Origin: Mogibacterium sp.
GTDB taxonomy: Bacteria > Bacillota > Clostridia > Peptostreptococcales > Anaerovoracaceae
Length of the DNA: 37,718 bases
Assembly: GCA_017510725.1 (NCBI GenBank)
Contig: JAFWMD010000021.1
Coordinates: 1 to 37,718, forward strand
Reading direction: 5' to 3'
A program made the translations under genes and the position numbers. Below, piece by piece: positions 11,946 to 19,361 of this stretch. How positions within the stretch are numbered: position 1 is the first letter of the stretch; every line of letters starts with the position of its first letter. The notes under the pieces are model-generated. The model was not told where the DNA came from. It saw only the letters and a list, made by a program, of their open reading frames with translations, and made no database searches.

Positions 11946-12005
11946 TTCATATACCCTTCTGTTTTAACTTTGCATTAAACAAATACACAGTTATTTTATC
12001 AAAAC

Positions 12006-12053
12006 GTGTGAGAATACCCCTGTCCTCTATAGGCAGTGGGATGAATCACACAC
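12006..12053 (-). promoter_or_regulatory. Structured 5' leader of the methionine-sulfoxide-repair operon
   Basis: On the minus strand, starting about 9 nt after the predicted transcription start, GTGTGTGA (12053-12046) pairs with TCTCACAC (12013-12006) except for one U-U. Inside it, CCCACTGCCT (12040-12031) pairs with AGGACAGGGG (12026-12017) except for two bulged A, around the loop ATAG. GTTTTGATAAAA follows. It matches no riboswitch I recognise; it could be a terminator-like switch or a stabiliser. Confidence 0.45.
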
Positions 12054-12068
12054 CTTTTTCCAATAATT

Positions 12069-12097
12069 AGTATAATACCGAGGCTCACATCGCTCAA
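12069..12097 (-). promoter_or_regulatory. Promoter of the seven-gene operon 11945-7421
   Basis: Minus strand TTGAGC (12097-12092), a 17-nt spacer and TATACT (12074-12069). All gaps between the seven downstream genes are 20 nt or less, so this is probably the only promoter. Confidence 0.6.
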
Positions 12098-12102
12098 GTC
12101 CC

Positions 12103-12126
12103 GGTCAGCACGGATCCGCCCTGACC
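12103..12126. repeat. Inverted repeat near the presumed left end of the TnpB element
   Basis: GGTCAG (12103-12108) and CTGACC (12121-12126) are perfect inverted arms, and the loop itself contains the palindrome CGGATCCG (12111-12118). A further 12-nt palindrome, CGGGCCGGCCCG, lies at 12206-12217. Imperfect hairpins mark IS200/IS605 left ends, but the exact left boundary cannot be fixed from one copy. Confidence 0.4.
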
Positions 12127-12144
12127 AAAATCACAAACAAATGT

Positions 12145-12173
12145 TTGAACATGCATGCCTTGAATGGTATAAT
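12145..12173 (+). promoter_or_regulatory. Promoter upstream of tnpB
   Basis: TTGAAC (12145-12150), a 17-nt spacer and a consensus TATAAT (12168-12173). The expected start near 12180 gives a leader of about 110 nt before tnpB. The -35 box overlaps a small hairpin CAAAC-AAAT-GTTTG (12134-12147). Confidence 0.65.
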
Positions 12174-12237
12174 AAGAGCAACTTAAGAATGATTCAACCC
12201 GTTTCCGGGCCGGCCCGTTGCAGGCAGGAGTGCATCA

Positions 12238-12277
12238 GGATATGCGTGATACAAGACACGCGTATCCTTCTTTTTTT
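12238..12277 (+). terminator. Intrinsic terminator inside the tnpB leader
   Basis: GGATATGCGTG (12238-12248) and CACGCGTATCC (12257-12267) form an 11-bp stem with one T-G pair around an 8-nt loop, followed by TTCTTTTTTTC. It ends only 14 nt before the tnpB start codon and lies downstream of the promoter. It should therefore stop most transcripts before tnpB, or serve as an attenuator or insulator. Confidence 0.75.
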
Positions 12278-12291
12278 CAGAGGTAGAAACC

Positions 12292-13395
12292 ATGACACGT
12301 ATCAGAGGCTACAAATACAGAGCATATCCAGATAAGAAGCAGCGGGAGTTCTTTGAAAGGACCTTCGGCTGCTGCCGCTTCGTGTACAACTACTATCTCG
12401 AAGCAAAGCAGCAGATCTGGAATGAGTGGCACGATACACTGAGCTATTCAGAAATGAGCAAGGACCTATCACACGTCCTCAAGAAAGAGAATGCATGGCT
12501 CAAAGAAGCGGACAGCATAGCTCTTCAGCAGTCACTGAGACATCTCGACAGAGCATACGACAACTTCTTCAAAAGGCGCGGAGGATATCCTAAGTTCAAG
12601 AGAAAGAGATCAGCTCAGAGCTACCGCACGATGAGCGGGAACGGGAACATCTCGATAGAAGGAAACATGATTAATCTGCCTAAGGCAGGCTATGTGAAGA
12701 TAGTAAACACAAGGATCTTCGAAGGGCGCATCATCAGCGCGACAGTATCCAGGACAGCAAGCGACAGATACTACATATCCCTCCAGGTGGAAGAAGAATT
12801 TGAGGTGCTGCCGAACAAGGGAGGAGAGATAGGCATAGATACAGGACTCAAATCTCTGTATACTGACTCCGACGCAAATTCAGTCATCAACCCGAAGGCT
12901 TTTGCTAAGCACGAGAAGAGGATCAGGCGTCTGCAGAGAAGCCTTTCGAGGAAGCAGAAAGGATCAAGGAACAGAGAAAAGGCAAGAAAGAAGCTGGCCA
13001 TAGAACACGAGAAAGTATCGAACATCAGGAACGACTTCCAGCACAAGATCAGCTACAGGCTGGCGAACGAGAACCAAGTCGTCTGCATAGAGGATCTTGA
13101 TGTGAAGGGAATGATGGCTGACCACAGGCTGGCAAAAGCGATAACTGACGCATCATGGTCCAGATTCTACAGAAAGCTCGAATACAAGATGGCTGATCAC
13201 GGAGGCGTGCTCATAAGGGTACCTAAGACATACCCTTCCAGCCAGAGGTGCAGCTGCTGCGGGAAGATAAACCACAAGGTCAGAGACCTCTCTGTACGCA
13301 GGTGGACATGTCCTGTTTGCGGAGCAGAACATGACCGTGACATCAATGCCGCAAAGAACATACTTGAAAAAGGCCTTGAGATGCTTGCATCTTAG
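12292..13395 (+). CDS. tnpB: TnpB RNA-guided nuclease (IS200/IS605-type, IS1341-like element)
   Basis: 367 residues, normal for TnpB, an RNA-guided DNA endonuclease ancestral to Cas12. The N-terminal OrfB helix-turn-helix region (residues 1-60) begins with the familiar RGYKYRAYPDKKQ. The RuvC triad is intact: Asp183 in EIGIDTGLKSL, Glu267 in VVCIEDLDVKGM and Asp350 in HDRDINAAKNI. The C4 zinc ribbon is complete (Cys320, Cys323, Cys340, Cys343). GAGGT lies 7 nt before ATG. No tnpA (Y1 transposase) is present in the window, so the element would depend on a transposase elsewhere. The 3' end runs into an omega-RNA. Intact active site and reading frame suggest a functional nuclease. Confidence 0.96.
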   Translation: MTRIRGYKYRAYPDKKQREFFERTFGCCRFVYNYYLEAKQQIWNEWHDTLSYSEMSKDLSHVLKKENAWLKEADSIALQQSLRHLDRAYDNFFKRRGGYPKFKRKRSAQSYRTMSGNGNISIEGNMINLPKAGYVKIVNTRIFEGRIISATVSRTASDRYYISLQVEEEFEVLPNKGGEIGIDTGLKSLYTDSDANSVINPKAFAKHEKRIRRLQRSLSRKQKGSRNREKARKKLAIEHEKVSNIRNDFQHKISYRLANENQVVCIEDLDVKGMMADHRLAKAITDASWSRFYRKLEYKMADHGGVLIRVPKTYPSSQRCSCCGKINHKVRDLSVRRWTCPVCGAEHDRDINAAKNILEKGLEMLAS

Positions 13396-13573
13396 GCCCT
13401 GACAAAAACATAAACTATGTACCGTGGGTCGCACGGGAATCCAAGCCTGTGGAGAGAGTGTAAGACGCTGAATCTTAGGACAAGGCGCAGTTCTCTGTGA
13501 AGCAGGAATCCCCCACCTCTAAGCATTCATGCGTAGGTGGCGGGAACGTTCAACAAAAAAACGGCTGTCTTTC
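13396..13573 (+). ncRNA. Omega-RNA (reRNA) of TnpB with element right end and guide
   Basis: Directly after the tnpB stop is a structured, non-coding stretch with the features of TnpB guide RNAs: a CCGT/ACGG hairpin near 13422-13435 and a terminal stem at the right end. That stem has CCC (13510-13512) plus CCACCT (13513-13518) pairing with AGGTGG (13535-13540) plus GGG (13542-13544). The element ends with TTCAA (13549-13553), which contains the TCAA right-end cleavage motif known from this family. The predicted guide is therefore host DNA from 13554 on. The 5' boundary is uncertain and may lie inside tnpB. Confidence 0.72.
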
Positions 13574-13584
13574 GACAGCCGTTT
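13555..13584 (-). terminator. Intrinsic terminator of the tyrosine phenol-lyase-like gene
   Basis: AAACGGCTGTC (13584-13574 on the minus strand) and GACAGCCGTTT (13569-13559) form a perfect 11-bp stem around a 4-nt loop, followed by TTTT. The TnpB element ends at its U-tract, so the predicted guide RNA (13554-13573) covers half of this hairpin. Confidence 0.85.
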
Positions 13585-13612
13585 ATGCCTACCATTAACA
13601 GTTACGTCTGAT

Positions 13613-15061
13613 CTACTGGTCTTCACCAAAGTCCGCTTTGTATGCGGCAACCAGTTTCTCAGGCCAGTCAGATGTCGCCTCGAGTTTTCCGGTAAAGAAT
13701 CTCAATGTCGCAGGCTCATGCACGAACCTGAGGCCGCCTATCAGATCCCTGTGATCGTATACCCACTTTACTCTGTCTATCACGTATTCAACCTGTGAAA
13801 GTGTGAACACGCGCCTTGGCAGTGCAAGTCTTACAAGCTCCATTGAGGCAAATCTTTCGCTTCCGTCAGCATTCCTTTCTTCGGAAAGCGTACCTCTTTC
13901 CATTCCTCTTATTCCGCCGCACAGATAGAATGCACACACGAGGGCTCCGGCCGGGTATTCCTGCTGAGGTATGTGGGAAACGAATTGGGTTGCATCAACA
14001 TGAGCTCCCAGGCCTCCGGCAGGAGTTATCATCGGTACGCCGTAATCAACCAGCTTGTCGACACAGTACTTTATGAACTGAGGTCCGTGTGAAATGATGT
14101 CCATGTCCATCGACTCATCAAAACCTACAGTCATAGCTTCTATCTCGCGCACCGACATACCGCCGTATGTAAGGAAGCCCTCAAACATAGGAACCAGATC
14201 TTCCATCGAATGGAACAGCTCCTCGTCTCTGACAAGAATGGCTCCGCCGCGCGCGAATCCGAACTTTCTGGCCGAGAAATAGATCATGTCAAACTGATCA
14301 GCAATCTCTCTGGTGATATCACGTACGGACATATCCCTGCGTTCTTCATCACGTACCTTAATGAAGTATAGATTGTCCTGCAGAAGCGATGCGTCGAGTA
14401 CCGACAGTATTCCATGCTTTCTTGCTACAGCACAGGCATCCTTGAAACTCTGTACCGATACAGGCTGACCGCCGATAAGATTCGTTCCGGCCTCCAGTCT
14501 CATGAATGCAACGTTATCTGCACCTTCCTTCTCAATGCAGGCTTCCAGTTTATCAAGGTCGATATCGCCCTTGAACGGAAGATCACTCTGTGATACCAGG
14601 CCTTCGTCCTTTACAAGTTCCTCTACATGACCACCCAGTCTGGTTATGTGGGCCTTGGCCGTTGTGAAATGATAGTTCATGATCACACAGCTTCCCGGCT
14701 TAACGAATCTTGTCGCAAGAATGTTCTCGCACGCCCTTCCCTGATGGGCAGGCAGGCAATATTTCATTCCGAATATTTCCTCAAGCTTGTCCCTCATGCG
14801 AAAGAACGATTCGCTCCCTGCATAGGCATCATCAGGCGTCATCATGCCTGCGAGCATCTGATCGCTCATCGCATTTACACCGGAATCGGTAAGCATATCC
14901 ATGAAGATGTCTCCATTGTGGAGCTGGAAGGTATTGAATCCGGCTTCTCTCATCTTCACGAGTCTCTGTTCTGCAGGCAGCAGCTGAAGCTGCTGAACGA
15001 TCTTGACTTTGTGCATTTCCACAGGAATAGGTTCGTGATCATAAAACTTAATTGCGGGCAT
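13613..15061 (-). CDS. Tyrosine phenol-lyase/tryptophanase family beta-eliminating lyase
   Basis: 482 residues, a PLP enzyme that splits tyrosine to phenol, or tryptophan to indole, plus pyruvate and ammonia. Family blocks: DIFMDMLTDSG (residues 51-61), the PLP phosphate loop PAHQGRACENIL (104-115), Asp223 in VLDAS, the PLP lysine Lys266 in SARKFGFARGG, and ELVRLALPRRVF. Two positions that I recall as separating the enzymes favour tyrosine phenol-lyase: Thr133 in HFTT (Asp in tryptophanase) and Arg388 in MERG (Ile or Val in tryptophanase). Start at 15061 has AAGGAGG 9 nt upstream; the earlier Met at 15097 has none. It is preceded by a tyrosine-codon attenuator (15101-15313), which supports the tyrosine link. 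Many databases would call it tryptophanase. Confidence 0.85.
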   Translation of the reverse strand: MPAIKFYDHEPIPVEMHKVKIVQQLQLLPAEQRLVKMREAGFNTFQLHNGDIFMDMLTDSGVNAMSDQMLAGMMTPDDAYAGSESFFRMRDKLEEIFGMKYCLPAHQGRACENILATRFVKPGSCVIMNYHFTTAKAHITRLGGHVEELVKDEGLVSQSDLPFKGDIDLDKLEACIEKEGADNVAFMRLEAGTNLIGGQPVSVQSFKDACAVARKHGILSVLDASLLQDNLYFIKVRDEERRDMSVRDITREIADQFDMIYFSARKFGFARGGAILVRDEELFHSMEDLVPMFEGFLTYGGMSVREIEAMTVGFDESMDMDIISHGPQFIKYCVDKLVDYGVPMITPAGGLGAHVDATQFVSHIPQQEYPAGALVCAFYLCGGIRGMERGTLSEERNADGSERFASMELVRLALPRRVFTLSQVEYVIDRVKWVYDHRDLIGGLRFVHEPATLRFFTGKLEATSDWPEKLVAAYKADFGEDQ

Positions 15062-15100
15062 TGCAGTATTCCTCCTTACTGTTGATCTCAGTCCCAAAAC

Positions 15101-15129
15101 AAAAGCTCCGCAGCTGCATGCTGCGGAGC
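15101..15129 (-). terminator. Attenuator terminator (segments 3:4) upstream of the lyase gene
   Basis: GCTCCGCAGC (15129-15120) and GCTGCGGAGC (15114-15105) form a perfect 10-bp GC-rich stem around ATGCA, followed by TTTTGTTTT. It lies between the promoter and the coding sequence, 40 nt before the start codon, so it must be bypassed for expression. Confidence 0.9.
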
Positions 15130-15223
15130 GTCATCAACCATGTGCGTCTGCCACGTTATCATACTACTCACAGCAATACAGCTACCCTGTCGCGGTAGTA
15201 GTAATAATAGTATTCTGCTGTGA
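15105..15223 (-). promoter_or_regulatory. Four-segment tyrosine transcription attenuator
   Basis: Read on the minus strand. Segment 1, TCACAGCAGAATAC (15223-15210), pairs with segment 2, GTATTGCTGTGA (15179-15168): 12 pairs with an AG bulge. Segment 2 can instead pair with segment 3: TGCTGTGAGT (15175-15166) with GCTCCGCAGCA, about ten pairs with one bulged C. Segment 3 also pairs with segment 4 as the terminator. The six Tyr codons lie directly after segment 1, and segment 2 ends on the leader stop codon. Ribosomes stalled at Tyr would cover segment 1, free segment 2 and favour antitermination. Completed translation, or none, favours the terminator. Confidence 0.85.
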
Positions 15224-15242
15224 TGTTGATTCTCTGTTTCAT
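15168..15242 (-). CDS. Tyrosine-rich leader peptide (24 aa, six consecutive Tyr)
   Basis: Short open frame ATG (15242) to TGA (15168), encoding MKQRINITAE, then six tyrosines (codons TAC TAT TAT TAC TAC TAC), then RDRVAVLL. The run of one amino acid, the position between a promoter and a terminator, and the stop codon lying inside the antiterminator segment are all as in the trp, his and phe leader peptides of other bacteria. The ribosome site is weak (GAGAAAG 5 nt upstream). The peptide itself is probably without function; its translation senses charged tRNA-Tyr. A TnaC-type nascent-peptide arrest by free tyrosine is an alternative. Confidence 0.85.
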   Translation of the reverse strand: MKQRINITAEYYYYYYRDRVAVLL

Positions 15243-15284
15243 TTGACTTTCTCGATTGTTAACTCTCTGTTAGAATATAGCGCT

Positions 15285-15313
15285 ATGTTACTATGCTTCT
15301 TTGTTAATATCAA
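15285..15313 (-). promoter_or_regulatory. Promoter of the leader peptide-lyase transcript
   Basis: Minus strand TTGATA (15313-15308), a 17-nt spacer and TAACAT (15290-15285). The expected start near 15278 gives about 36 nt before the leader ATG. No terminator separates it from the CooC-like gene upstream, so some read-through is possible. Confidence 0.6.
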
Positions 15314-15331
15314 CAAATAGCACGCTTGTTT

Positions 15332-16075
15332 TTATTTAAATTCACAAACTGTGTCAATGATCTCTTTAACACCCGGGCTGTTACAGTTAAGCGGCTCGCC
15401 TTTAAGCCCTGCCATCATTATCCCATTCTGAGCCGGAATCTCTGCAATAACAGCAGTCTTGTCACGTATGGCGTCTCTTACCATTGCAGCCTGTTCATCG
15501 TCAGCCTTGTTTATAACGAAAAAGACAGGTTTCCCGAGAGCCTTGCCCATGTCGTATATCTTTTCGGACAAATGTATCGATTCGTAAGAGGGATCTATGA
15601 CCATCAGTATAACATCCGCGCACCTGTCCAGCCCGCGGCCGAAATGTTCAACTCCTGCTTCAGTATCGGTGATCACTATGTCATCATCTCCGGTCTCGAG
15701 ATTATCCAGAAACATCTTGCCGGTAAAACCGATACCACAGGCACAGCCCTCCTCTGCTTCTGCGATCTTGCCGATGGCCATCAGGTGCAGGTTTTCTTCT
15801 CCTGTCATGAACTCTCCGGGAATATCGGAAAAGTGCCAGGTGTTATCGAAAACTCTGCCCTTTTCATCGAACACCCGGTACGCACCCTTCTTTCCTCCGA
15901 AATAATGTGTAAAATCTTCCGGCAAATCAAATCCGAGCTGCCTGTGCAGCCCGTAGTTTGACTCATCGGAATCGATCACCAGTACATTCTTTCCTGCTTT
16001 CTGATATGCCCTCGCCAGAAGCGTTGCGACAGTGCTCTTACCGCAGCCGCCCTTTCCGCACAATATAATCTTCAT
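15332..16075 (-). CDS. CooC-like ATPase (CO dehydrogenase nickel-insertion/maturation type)
   Basis: 247 residues, MinD/CooC-type deviant Walker A P-loop ATPase: GKGGCGKST at residues 7-15 with the signature Lys8. VLVIDSDESN forms the next strand, and VITDTEAGVEHFGRG is the Walker B-like segment. A CxC metal-binding pair (Cys111, Cys113 in EGCACGIG) is the hallmark of CooC, which dimerises around nickel and loads CO dehydrogenase. No CO dehydrogenase gene is in the window, so the client is unknown; it could be elsewhere or a different nickel or iron-sulfur enzyme. GGAGG lies 9 nt upstream. Last gene of the minus-strand run from 19075. Confidence 0.85.
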   Translation of the reverse strand: MKIILCGKGGCGKSTVATLLARAYQKAGKNVLVIDSDESNYGLHRQLGFDLPEDFTHYFGGKKGAYRVFDEKGRVFDNTWHFSDIPGEFMTGEENLHLMAIGKIAEAEEGCACGIGFTGKMFLDNLETGDDDIVITDTEAGVEHFGRGLDRCADVILMVIDPSYESIHLSEKIYDMGKALGKPVFFVINKADDEQAAMVRDAIRDKTAVIAEIPAQNGIMMAGLKGEPLNCNSPGVKEIIDTVCEFK

Positions 16076-16163
16076 TCCTTATTTCCTCCGGATAGCTCAC
16101 GTCTCATCAGCGCTGTCCGCTCTGCCATCTTTCAATTTTACTGATTTAAAGTACTCCATATGT

Positions 16164-17255
16164 TTATAGTCCAAGCAGCGCTTCTACCTGATCTCTCTTC
16201 TCATTCAGAACGCAGCCTCCCTTGTGATCATCCGCAAGAATGTCGCTGCTTCTGAGAGCCATGAACAGTCTGGATCTGAGCGCCTCTCTCAGAGATGTAT
16301 CTTTTACGTTAATATCCGAGTATGGCGAGAACGGGCAAGGCTCCGCTCCTCCATGAGAGTTGATATGGAAGAAACCGCGTCCGGCAGCAAGGCATCCGCC
16401 GGAGCTTTTCTCATCGCCCGGGAACGAAATATAAATCATATCCTGCTTGTTCATCCGCAGCTCATCTATCCTGTCTGACATGTATTCGCGGTCATCGTCA
16501 TCAGGAGAGAGATTTGCGCCTTCATCCGAGACCGGAGTGAATTCTATGTAGAATACCGCCTTGCATCCGCGCGATCTCAGCGACTCAAGAAAACTTTCGG
16601 AATATACTTTTTCCATGTTTTCCTTCGTAACAGTAACAGATACGCCGTATATAATACCCTTCTCATGGAGCTTGTCCATCTTCTCCATGACAGTATCGTA
16701 AACACCTGCACCTCTTCTTGAATCAGTCTCTTCGCGCTCACCCTCAATGCTTATTACAGGCACTATATTGCGGCACTTTTCCAGGAGTTCCAGATGCCTG
16801 TCAGTCATGAATGTTCCGTTGGTGAAGACCGGGAACATGATGTTCTTTATCTTTCCTGCCGATTCTATGACATCCCATCTGAGCATCGGTTCACCGCCGG
16901 CCAGCAATATAAAGCTGACGCCGAGGTCCTCAGCCTCTCTGAAGATCTTCATCCATTCTTCCTCGGTGAGCTGCATCGACGGAGCACAGTCAGTCGTAGC
17001 GTCATTTGCACGTGAGTAGCAGCCCTCGCAGTGAAGATTGCAGCTTGAAGTGATGCTCGCGATAAGGTAGGAAGGTACGTGCAGGCCTTCCTTTTCGTTT
17101 TTCTCTCTTCTTTTGTCCGCCACGGCACATGAGGCAGCGAACTTCACCAGAAACGCGCTCTCCCTTGGATCCTTCAGAGTAGCTTTCAGTGCGTCCTTGA
17201 TAACCTGCTCAACTCCTTCAGTTAGGTATTTCTGCAAATCAAATCTTTCGCCCAT
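16164..17255 (-). CDS. Radical SAM protein
   Basis: 363 residues. The SAM-cluster motif CNLHCEGC (Cys72, Cys76, Cys79) follows a 65-residue N-terminal helical segment. LLAGGEPMLR is the GGE motif binding SAM, and FPVFTNGTFMT and PVISIEGE continue the partial TIM barrel. The C-terminal part (GGCLAAGRGFFHINSHGG and EPCPFSPYSD) resembles a shortened SPASM-type region with few Cys. The role is unknown: radical SAM proteins of this shape modify peptides or assist cofactor assembly. No precursor-peptide gene is visible next to it. AGGAAA lies 6 nt before the start. The next gene upstream is an ICMT-like methyltransferase 30 nt away. Confidence 0.87.
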   Translation of the reverse strand: MGERFDLQKYLTEGVEQVIKDALKATLKDPRESAFLVKFAASCAVADKRREKNEKEGLHVPSYLIASITSSCNLHCEGCYSRANDATTDCAPSMQLTEEEWMKIFREAEDLGVSFILLAGGEPMLRWDVIESAGKIKNIMFPVFTNGTFMTDRHLELLEKCRNIVPVISIEGEREETDSRRGAGVYDTVMEKMDKLHEKGIIYGVSVTVTKENMEKVYSESFLESLRSRGCKAVFYIEFTPVSDEGANLSPDDDDREYMSDRIDELRMNKQDMIYISFPGDEKSSGGCLAAGRGFFHINSHGGAEPCPFSPYSDINVKDTSLREALRSRLFMALRSSDILADDHKGGCVLNEKRDQVEALLGL

Positions 17256-19166: not shown

Positions 19167-19361
19167 CTAGTGAGTATCCGCTTTTTGATGTAATGCATTC
19201 CCGCAGCAGGCAGCCTCGTTTTGTCTGTGCTTCGGACATGAATCCGCATACGGGCAGCCTATGCAGGCATTACCTTTTTTCTTTTCTTTATAAATATATC
19301 TGGCTGCGAAGAACAGTATCGTTACTATTACTATTATCGCAATTGCCGTAGCTGCATTCAC
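19167..19361 (-). CDS. FeoB-associated Cys-rich membrane protein
   Basis: 64 residues: one N-terminal transmembrane helix (about 4-22), a basic stretch YIYKEKKKG and a Cys-rich tail with CIGCPYADSCP and ACCGN. This matches the small Cys-rich membrane proteins found next to feoB, thought to help iron transport or act as a metal/redox partner (from family context). It starts with GTG, with GGAGG 8 nt upstream. Last gene of the feoA-feoB operon, separated from feoB by a 16-bp inverted repeat (19392-19431). Confidence 0.85.
   Translation of the reverse strand: MNAATAIAIIVIVTILFFAARYIYKEKKKGNACIGCPYADSCPKHRQNEAACCGNALHQKADTH

Follow-up and report, generated by a model that had tools for sequence, protein, structure and literature searches.

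A six-tyrosine leader peptide that probably senses tyrosine shortage before a lyase gene of Mogibacterium-related rumen bacteria

Among Mogibacterium-related rumen bacteria, a leader peptide with six consecutive Tyr codons probably serves, as judged from sequence comparison, as a sensor of tyrosine shortage that switches on a lyase gene. In the present study, the window (the whole stretch of Mogibacterium DNA analysed, 37,718 nucleotides) was compared with related loci, and we consider it very probable that a trp-type transcription attenuator which reads tyrosine controls the lyase, this being the best explanation of the evidence. Most parts of the attenuator had been named in the original prediction; to these we add a regulon, four lyase orthologues elsewhere that carry tyrosine T-boxes, and a starvation logic that points to tyrosine synthesis.

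Layout of the attenuator region

The attenuator region (15101..15313) is read on the minus strand and lies between an ATPase gene (15332-16075) and the lyase gene (13613..15061, minus strand). The product of the latter, 482 aa long, is a PLP beta-eliminating lyase and a divergent relative of tyrosine phenol-lyase; the gene is preceded by the ribosome-binding site AAGGAGG at 15071..15077 on the same strand. Directly downstream of the lyase gene and convergent with it, a TnpB of the IS200/IS605 type was seen at 12292-13395 on the plus strand. The predicted promoter of the leader transcript, TTGATA-17-TAACAT (15285..15313, minus strand), is present where the original prediction had placed it, with the -35 box TTGATA at 15313-15308, the -10 box TAACAT at 15290-15285 and a spacer of 17. 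The promoter match is weak by itself, since 8 promoter-like sites were counted in 12000-16200 against 5.4 (sd 2.2) in shuffles; similar promoter-region sequence was seen by eye upstream in many congeners. An imperfect palindrome, TTTGTTGATATTAACAAA, at 15316-15299 of the minus strand overlaps the -35 box and by eye is kept in many congener loci. It is a possible operator for some regulator, and we take it to be Rex-like in look, though the spacing differs.

All elements of the leader itself are on the minus strand. The leader peptide ORF, MKQRINITAEYYYYYYRDRVAVLL, has 24 codons, from the ATG at 15242 to the TGA at 15168 (15168..15242), and contains the predicted six consecutive Tyr codons, the putative control codons, at 15195..15212. 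These codons had been described as lying directly after segment 1; instead, segment 1 (15210..15223) overlaps the first of them. Segment 2 (15169..15183) is common to the 1:2 pairing and to the 2:3 antiterminator, and it overlaps the leader stop codon. Its antiterminator partner, segment 3 (15112..15125), lies within the intrinsic terminator hairpin (3:4) at 15105..15129, where it takes up the greater part of the 5' arm, the loop and the beginning of the 3' arm. The perfect 10-bp stem of this hairpin was confirmed, with a loop of 5, and TTTTGTTTTG (also given as TTTTGTTTT) lies downstream of it.

The complementarity of segment 1 (15223-15210) and segment 2 (15179-15168) was found over 12 bp as predicted, with a two-base bulge (by eye) and a duplex energy of -17.5 kcal/mol. 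The alternative pairing of segment 2 (15183-15169) with 15125-15112 was likewise found, over 14 bp with one bulged U. Since segment 2 can pair with segment 1 or with segment 3, two strong structures compete for the same bases. Folding of the leader transcript, which had been proposed as a check, gave a structure far more stable than shuffles (-54.9 against -39.2 kcal/mol; z -3.9; 0 of 200).

Runs of five TAY codons occur at two separate places in the genome, the leader and window position 19323-19337; the control pattern, read backwards, also has two matches, so that a five-TAY run is not rare in itself. The run at 19323-19337 was rejected as a second Tyr leader because by eye it reads in another frame. 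As the Tyr run alone is not rare, it is conservation exceeding chance that carries the case.

Conservation of the leader and of its competing helices

A protein search in one genome each for 84,980 species gave 312 stretches that encode a relative of the lyase, and among the best 80 of these 312, which were kept (L031-L110), 22 loci are congener-like (L031-L051, L086). The proposed alignment of orthologous leaders showed that the Tyr run is kept: an ORF that holds between five and eight Tyr codons precedes the lyase at 19 of the 22 congener-like loci, and the remaining three (L041, L042, L044) offer only 177, 1 and 248 nt of upstream sequence. Leaders with five and four Tyr codons were also found at the Saccharibacteria-labelled loci L063 and L070, whose genomes measure about 0.8 and 0.9 Mb. 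These versions perhaps sit on leaderless transcripts, as seen by eye, and among 40 genomes searched around the Saccharibacteria genome, the sole clear match was the lyase leader of that genome itself. Some side observations belong here. The lyase frame of L086 stops early (439 aa; match of 1445 nt) behind an intact-looking leader, from a frameshift or an assembly error; the 3' end of a putative group II intron was made out by eye at positions 1-180 of L044 (G040), upstream of the lyase; and G015 has a lyase-type leader (L142) close to where another contig stretch ends. In L083 and L100, the possible start of a divergent regulator gene was seen by eye ahead of the lyase, and Clostridia such as these may use a protein regulator instead.

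It could be argued that the hairpin merely terminates the upstream ATPase gene, which runs in the same direction and stops 89 nt short of the leader ORF, and that the Tyr run is incidental. We give this almost no credence, as the Tyr run, the antiterminator and the terminator persist amid different flanks, Saccharibacteria-labelled loci included, and the same elements recur before other tyrosine genes.

The attenuator is further supported by covariation in an alignment of 22 leaders, window included (A1), in which the shuffle tests were uncorrected for kinship. In the antiterminator 2:3, 97.7% of cells are paired and 5 of 14 pairs are changed on both sides, a count that 2 of 500 shuffles reach; its covariation score was reached by 0 of 500 shuffles (kinship ignored). 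In the terminator 3:4, 96.4% of cells are paired and 7 of 10 pairs are changed on both sides, with 0 of 500 shuffles reaching its covariation (kinship ignored). When the partners of 2:3 and 3:4 were slid by 1-3 columns, pairing was destroyed. The covariation check proposed for all three helices thus came out positively for 2:3 and 3:4; helix 1:2 is kept over the 22 sequences (90.9% of cells paired), yet it has no compensatory changes, and its support is therefore conservation. The antiterminator and the terminator are mutually exclusive and both are conserved, as in attenuators of the trp type.

Folding of these leaders under different conditions was consistent with a switch. As free RNA, the terminator was formed in 22/22 leaders, and also, as expected, in 22/22 when the RNA was cut away up to a point 14 nt beyond where the stop codon begins. 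Masking the RNA to 16 nt into the Tyr run, which mimics a stalled ribosome, gave the antiterminator in 16/22 by a simple counting rule, and still the terminator in 6/22 (L036, L039, L047, L049, L050, L086). Of those six, L036 gave the antiterminator and L049 a mixed fold in another folding analysis.

From this arrangement we infer ribosome stalling and a response to tyrosine. If charged tRNA-Tyr is plentiful, the ribosome would pass the six Tyr codons to the stop codon and cover segment 2 (or the 1:2 pairing would re-form); with segment 2 covered or held in 1:2, the 3:4 terminator would form and the lyase would be off. If charged tRNA-Tyr is scarce, the ribosome would stall on the Tyr codons and cover segment 1, segment 2 would then pair with segment 3, the terminator would be blocked and the lyase would be transcribed. 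In the cell, segment 2 would presumably meet segment 3 before segment 4 is made.

The RNA of segment 2 is strongly kept though it is read in frame 1, 2 and 0 in 14, 6 and 2 of the 22 leaders, respectively, and the peptide endings vary accordingly (e.g. VAVLL, SCFAV, LKR, CRRE, out of one RNA segment). The original prediction that the leader stop lies in segment 2 holds at the window locus; it does not hold in relatives, where the stop is found before, in or after segment 2. Since segment 2 is kept while its frame varies, and the Tyr run stays in frame with the start, selection acts on the RNA. These observations bear on a sensor like TnaC, in which the nascent leader peptide would bind free tyrosine, the ribosome would stall at the end of the leader, and excess tyrosine would induce the lyase. 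TnaC of E. coli tryptophanase is a sensor of free tryptophan that works with Rho, without an intrinsic-terminator switch. Tryptophanase is, with tyrosine phenol-lyase, the nearest named relative of the lyase, and both systems have a leader peptide before sister enzymes. However, the conserved C-terminal peptide of the TnaC type is absent here, one RNA segment being read in three frames; an intrinsic terminator with a covarying antiterminator is present; and similar leaders precede tyrS, tyrA-like and DAHP synthase genes, which would be unsuited to induction by excess tyrosine. We therefore regard a TnaC-like sensor as very improbable and retain the trp-type attenuator.

The trp, phe and his attenuators of Proteobacteria (trpL, pheL, hisL) are alike in the short ORF with a run of regulatory codons, in the 2:3 and 3:4 pairings, in a probable 1:2 pairing and in the intrinsic terminator. 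Unlike them, the present leaders have Tyr as the control codon, are hosted by Bacillota and by Saccharibacteria-labelled genomes, and read the RNA of segment 2 in varying frames. The leader pheL is the subject of PMC8262941. The original remark that peptide-leader attenuation is rare in Bacillota was fair, with the reservation that histidine leader peptides of Bacillota (hisS, hisZ, his operon) were already reported in 2010 and 2022 (PMC2965389, PMC9413887). As described there, these are also peptide leaders working where T-boxes are common, and they differ in amino acid, genes and lineage. In a survey from 2005, Firmicutes synthetase genes were reported to have T-boxes and no classical attenuation, and tyrosine to be under T-boxes (PMC1262725); the hisS exceptions to this picture came later (PMC2965389). 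The AroR leader before aroF of Corynebacterium glutamicum contains Phe-Tyr-Phe and is reported to respond to Phe but not to Tyr (PMC11802643). It shares with our leaders the position of an aromatic leader peptide before DAHP synthase; here, in contrast, the leaders are dominated by Tyr runs, and tyrS and the lyase are part of the regulon. No tyrosine leader peptide was found in the literature searched, neither for this enzyme family, as had been anticipated, nor for others. The mechanism itself is that of a trp-type attenuator; new here are the amino acid, the regulon and the host groups, as well as an enzyme that may have to be given another role.

Other tyrosine leaders and T-boxes

A covariance model built from the leaders (R1) gave 61 matches in 47 genomes of the genus at E up to 0.1; 48 of these 61 were inspected, as were all but 3 matches of the order-level search described below. 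Of 20 fetched regions other than lyase leaders, 18 have Tyr runs in short ORFs and two do not. The genes behind these extra leaders are tyrS, tyrA-like genes (G037, G005), a TrpX-like transporter gene (G013) and some without a clear link. The matches L170 and L171 were dropped for a missing Tyr run, and L250, which has the run, because no related gene lies behind it. A leader typically of the type AAIYYY stands directly before tyrS in 15 of the 39 genus genomes with a usable region upstream of tyrS (tyrS being present in 43); the remaining 24 lack it or have it elsewhere, which makes the tyrS arm patchy. The TyrS of L167 was confirmed by TIGR00234. Upstream of tyrS in L191, L201 and L202, a terminator-like hairpin is kept by eye and the Tyr leader ORF is absent; these are possibly decayed attenuators. 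In G026 (contig C129), about 1.9 kb lie between a tyrS-type leader and tyrS, and an insertion may have parted the two. L152, L154 (G037) and L165 (G035) are Tyr leaders followed by no clear tyrosine gene; by eye, an endonuclease IV-like frame, an HD-GYP-like frame and the contig end come next, respectively.

At the level of the order, R1 was searched in 158 genomes, and 15 of them matched it at E up to 0.01. Of ten additional loci retrieved, nine carry Tyr/Phe leaders, mostly of the type AAEYYYYYFFF, which stem from four other genera of the same family. Behind eight of these nine leaders lies a DAHP synthase frame, confirmed in L241 by NCBIfam TIGR01361 and alike by eye in the rest. Terminators of the extra leaders were named by hand, automatic finding having caught few. 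When 25 of the 27 extra Tyr leaders were put to an antiterminator test (L160 and L168 left out), 24 were scorable, and in 19 of these 24 the antiterminator beats at least 95% of shuffles, though choosing the best-matching segment makes high scores more likely; L241, L247, L155, L165 and L166 stayed below 95%.

The similar leaders before tyrS, tyrA-like, TrpX-like transporter and DAHP synthase genes therefore make up a regulon. On the strength of these sequence comparisons, the switch is assigned to a tyrosine/aromatic regulon of this bacterial family, with genes varying by member. An aromatic-pathway gene may have been the source of the leader at the lyase; in the likeliest history, the leader would have begun in the service of aromatic synthesis and reached the lyase afterwards. 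In G005, a Tyr leader (L157, contig C14) stands before lyase fragments (79% identity over 89 aa, and three shorter pieces), and this genome has AroC and TyrA; the broken copy may reflect decay of the lyase where the pathway exists.

The T-box is the other device for this task. Tyr T-boxes (RF00230) turn genes on when tRNA-Tyr is uncharged, and thus follow the same logic as the leader, reading the tRNA directly without a leader peptide. At the window locus, no T-box match at gathering score was obtained; a scan with Rfam found none at the leader loci L063, L070 and L086, and a motif check found no T-box core motif at the other leader loci. By contrast, four of 60 other lyase loci scanned with Rfam carry T-boxes above the gathering score (L026, L056, L062, L066), all with UAC as the specifier when the alignment was read by eye. 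At L075 and L081, T-box cores (at -122 and -221) were rejected as Tyr T-boxes, being below the gathering score and having specifiers that by eye are not UAY. The Tyr leader and the Tyr T-box are unrelated devices, and both would predict expression of the lyase when tyrosine is short. The same gene under either sensor offers a clean case of swapped sensors. Within the genus, T-box matches occur in 36/47 genomes, above the gathering score in three; since T-boxes remain in so many genomes, the leader did not replace them in general.

The lyase and tyrosine supply

The lyase scored 440.3 bits against the tyrosine phenol-lyase equivalog TIGR02618 (cut-off 720.7). It passes only the broad subfamily model NF009709 and is well below the equivalog cut-offs of both tyrosine phenol-lyase and tryptophanase. 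A structure model of modest quality (pLDDT 78.8) has tyrosine phenol-lyases as its nearest folds, with 39% identity. In a tree built without tryptophanase, the clade of the lyase forms its own branch against four tyrosine phenol-lyase-like rows. In an active-site alignment of the lyase and 82 relatives (83 members), all 83 retain T124, M379, R381 and K257 (numbering of C. freundii tyrosine phenol-lyase), and all but the truncated L086 retain F448. R217, K256 and H343 are replaced in all 83, R217 by Leu, and M288 is F in clade members (Y in L077). We take K257 to be the PLP lysine, T124, M379, R381 and F448 to form the phenol pocket, and R217 to contact PLP.

Known enzymes of this family degrade tyrosine. 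Control by tyrosine starvation is odd for a degradative enzyme and points to tyrosine synthesis. We lean slightly towards a lyase that works in this direction, from phenol, pyruvate and ammonia or from phenol and serine, in lineages without the shikimate pathway; the loss of R217 was counted against this reading. In the genus, where many of the genomes counted are incomplete and kinship was ignored in every count, chorismate synthase (AroC) is missing in 19 of 25 lyase genomes against 6 of 22 others (p=0.0012); among genomes with completeness of 90% or more and contamination of 5% or less it is missing in 8 of 10 against 1 of 8 (p=0.015). No AroC was found in the genome of the window, which is 84.5% complete, and six lyase genomes of the genus do have AroC. 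Prephenate dehydrogenase showed no significant contrast, strong matches being present in 5 of 25 lyase genomes against 8 of 22 others (p=0.33), many of them likewise incomplete, and in 2 of 10 against 6 of 8 of the better genomes (p=0.054). These counts refer to the 13 of 47 genomes with strong matches; at the Pfam cut-off the number would be 21 of 47, and 42 genomes show a match of some kind.

Outside the genus, 53 of 60 lyase genomes retain AroC. Of the 7 lyase loci without AroC, 5 have a Tyr leader or Tyr T-box, against 1 of the 53 with AroC (p=2e-5, kinship ignored), the five control-bearing cases without AroC forming only two groups on the tree; the T-box locus L026 lies in an AroC-bearing genome. 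Three of these 60 loci have less than 200 nt upstream (one of them, L052, was left out of the Rfam scan), the T-box count may miss weak T-boxes, and completeness is given for few of these genomes.

Against synthesis, it may be held that the attenuator works as described and the lyase is still degradative, with control by tyrosine scarcity serving, for example, the release of pyruvate and ammonia by breakdown of serine, cysteine or some other amino acid. Tyrosine phenol-lyase does degrade several amino acids, and the altered active site, the retention of AroC in most lyase genomes outside the genus and the non-significant result for prephenate dehydrogenase all agree with this. However, two unrelated tyrosine-scarcity devices act on the same gene, the other genes behind such leaders are biosynthetic or tRNA-charging ones, and genomes of the genus that lack AroC often have the lyase. 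We consider a degradative role rather unlikely, while giving it serious weight.

A fuller form of the synthetic reading, which we put forward tentatively, is that the lyase is a phenol-salvaging tyrosine synthase of shikimate-less gut bacteria, namely Mogibacterium relatives, Saccharibacteria and small-genome Bacilli. Its switch would have been taken over from the replaced aromatic pathway, the device being a peptide attenuator in one lineage and a Tyr T-box in other lineages. No biosynthetic use of such a lyase was found in the literature searched. In Chlamydia, trp leaders and salvage of indole by tryptophan synthase beta are described (PMC3937554); the likeness is that a pathway remnant rebuilds an aromatic amino acid from a ring compound, an analogy only, with another enzyme and another amino acid. 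The control logic turns a degradative-looking lyase gene into a directly testable candidate tyrosine synthase. If this is true, it could explain the tyrosine supply of some rumen bacteria and Saccharibacteria that live without the shikimate pathway.
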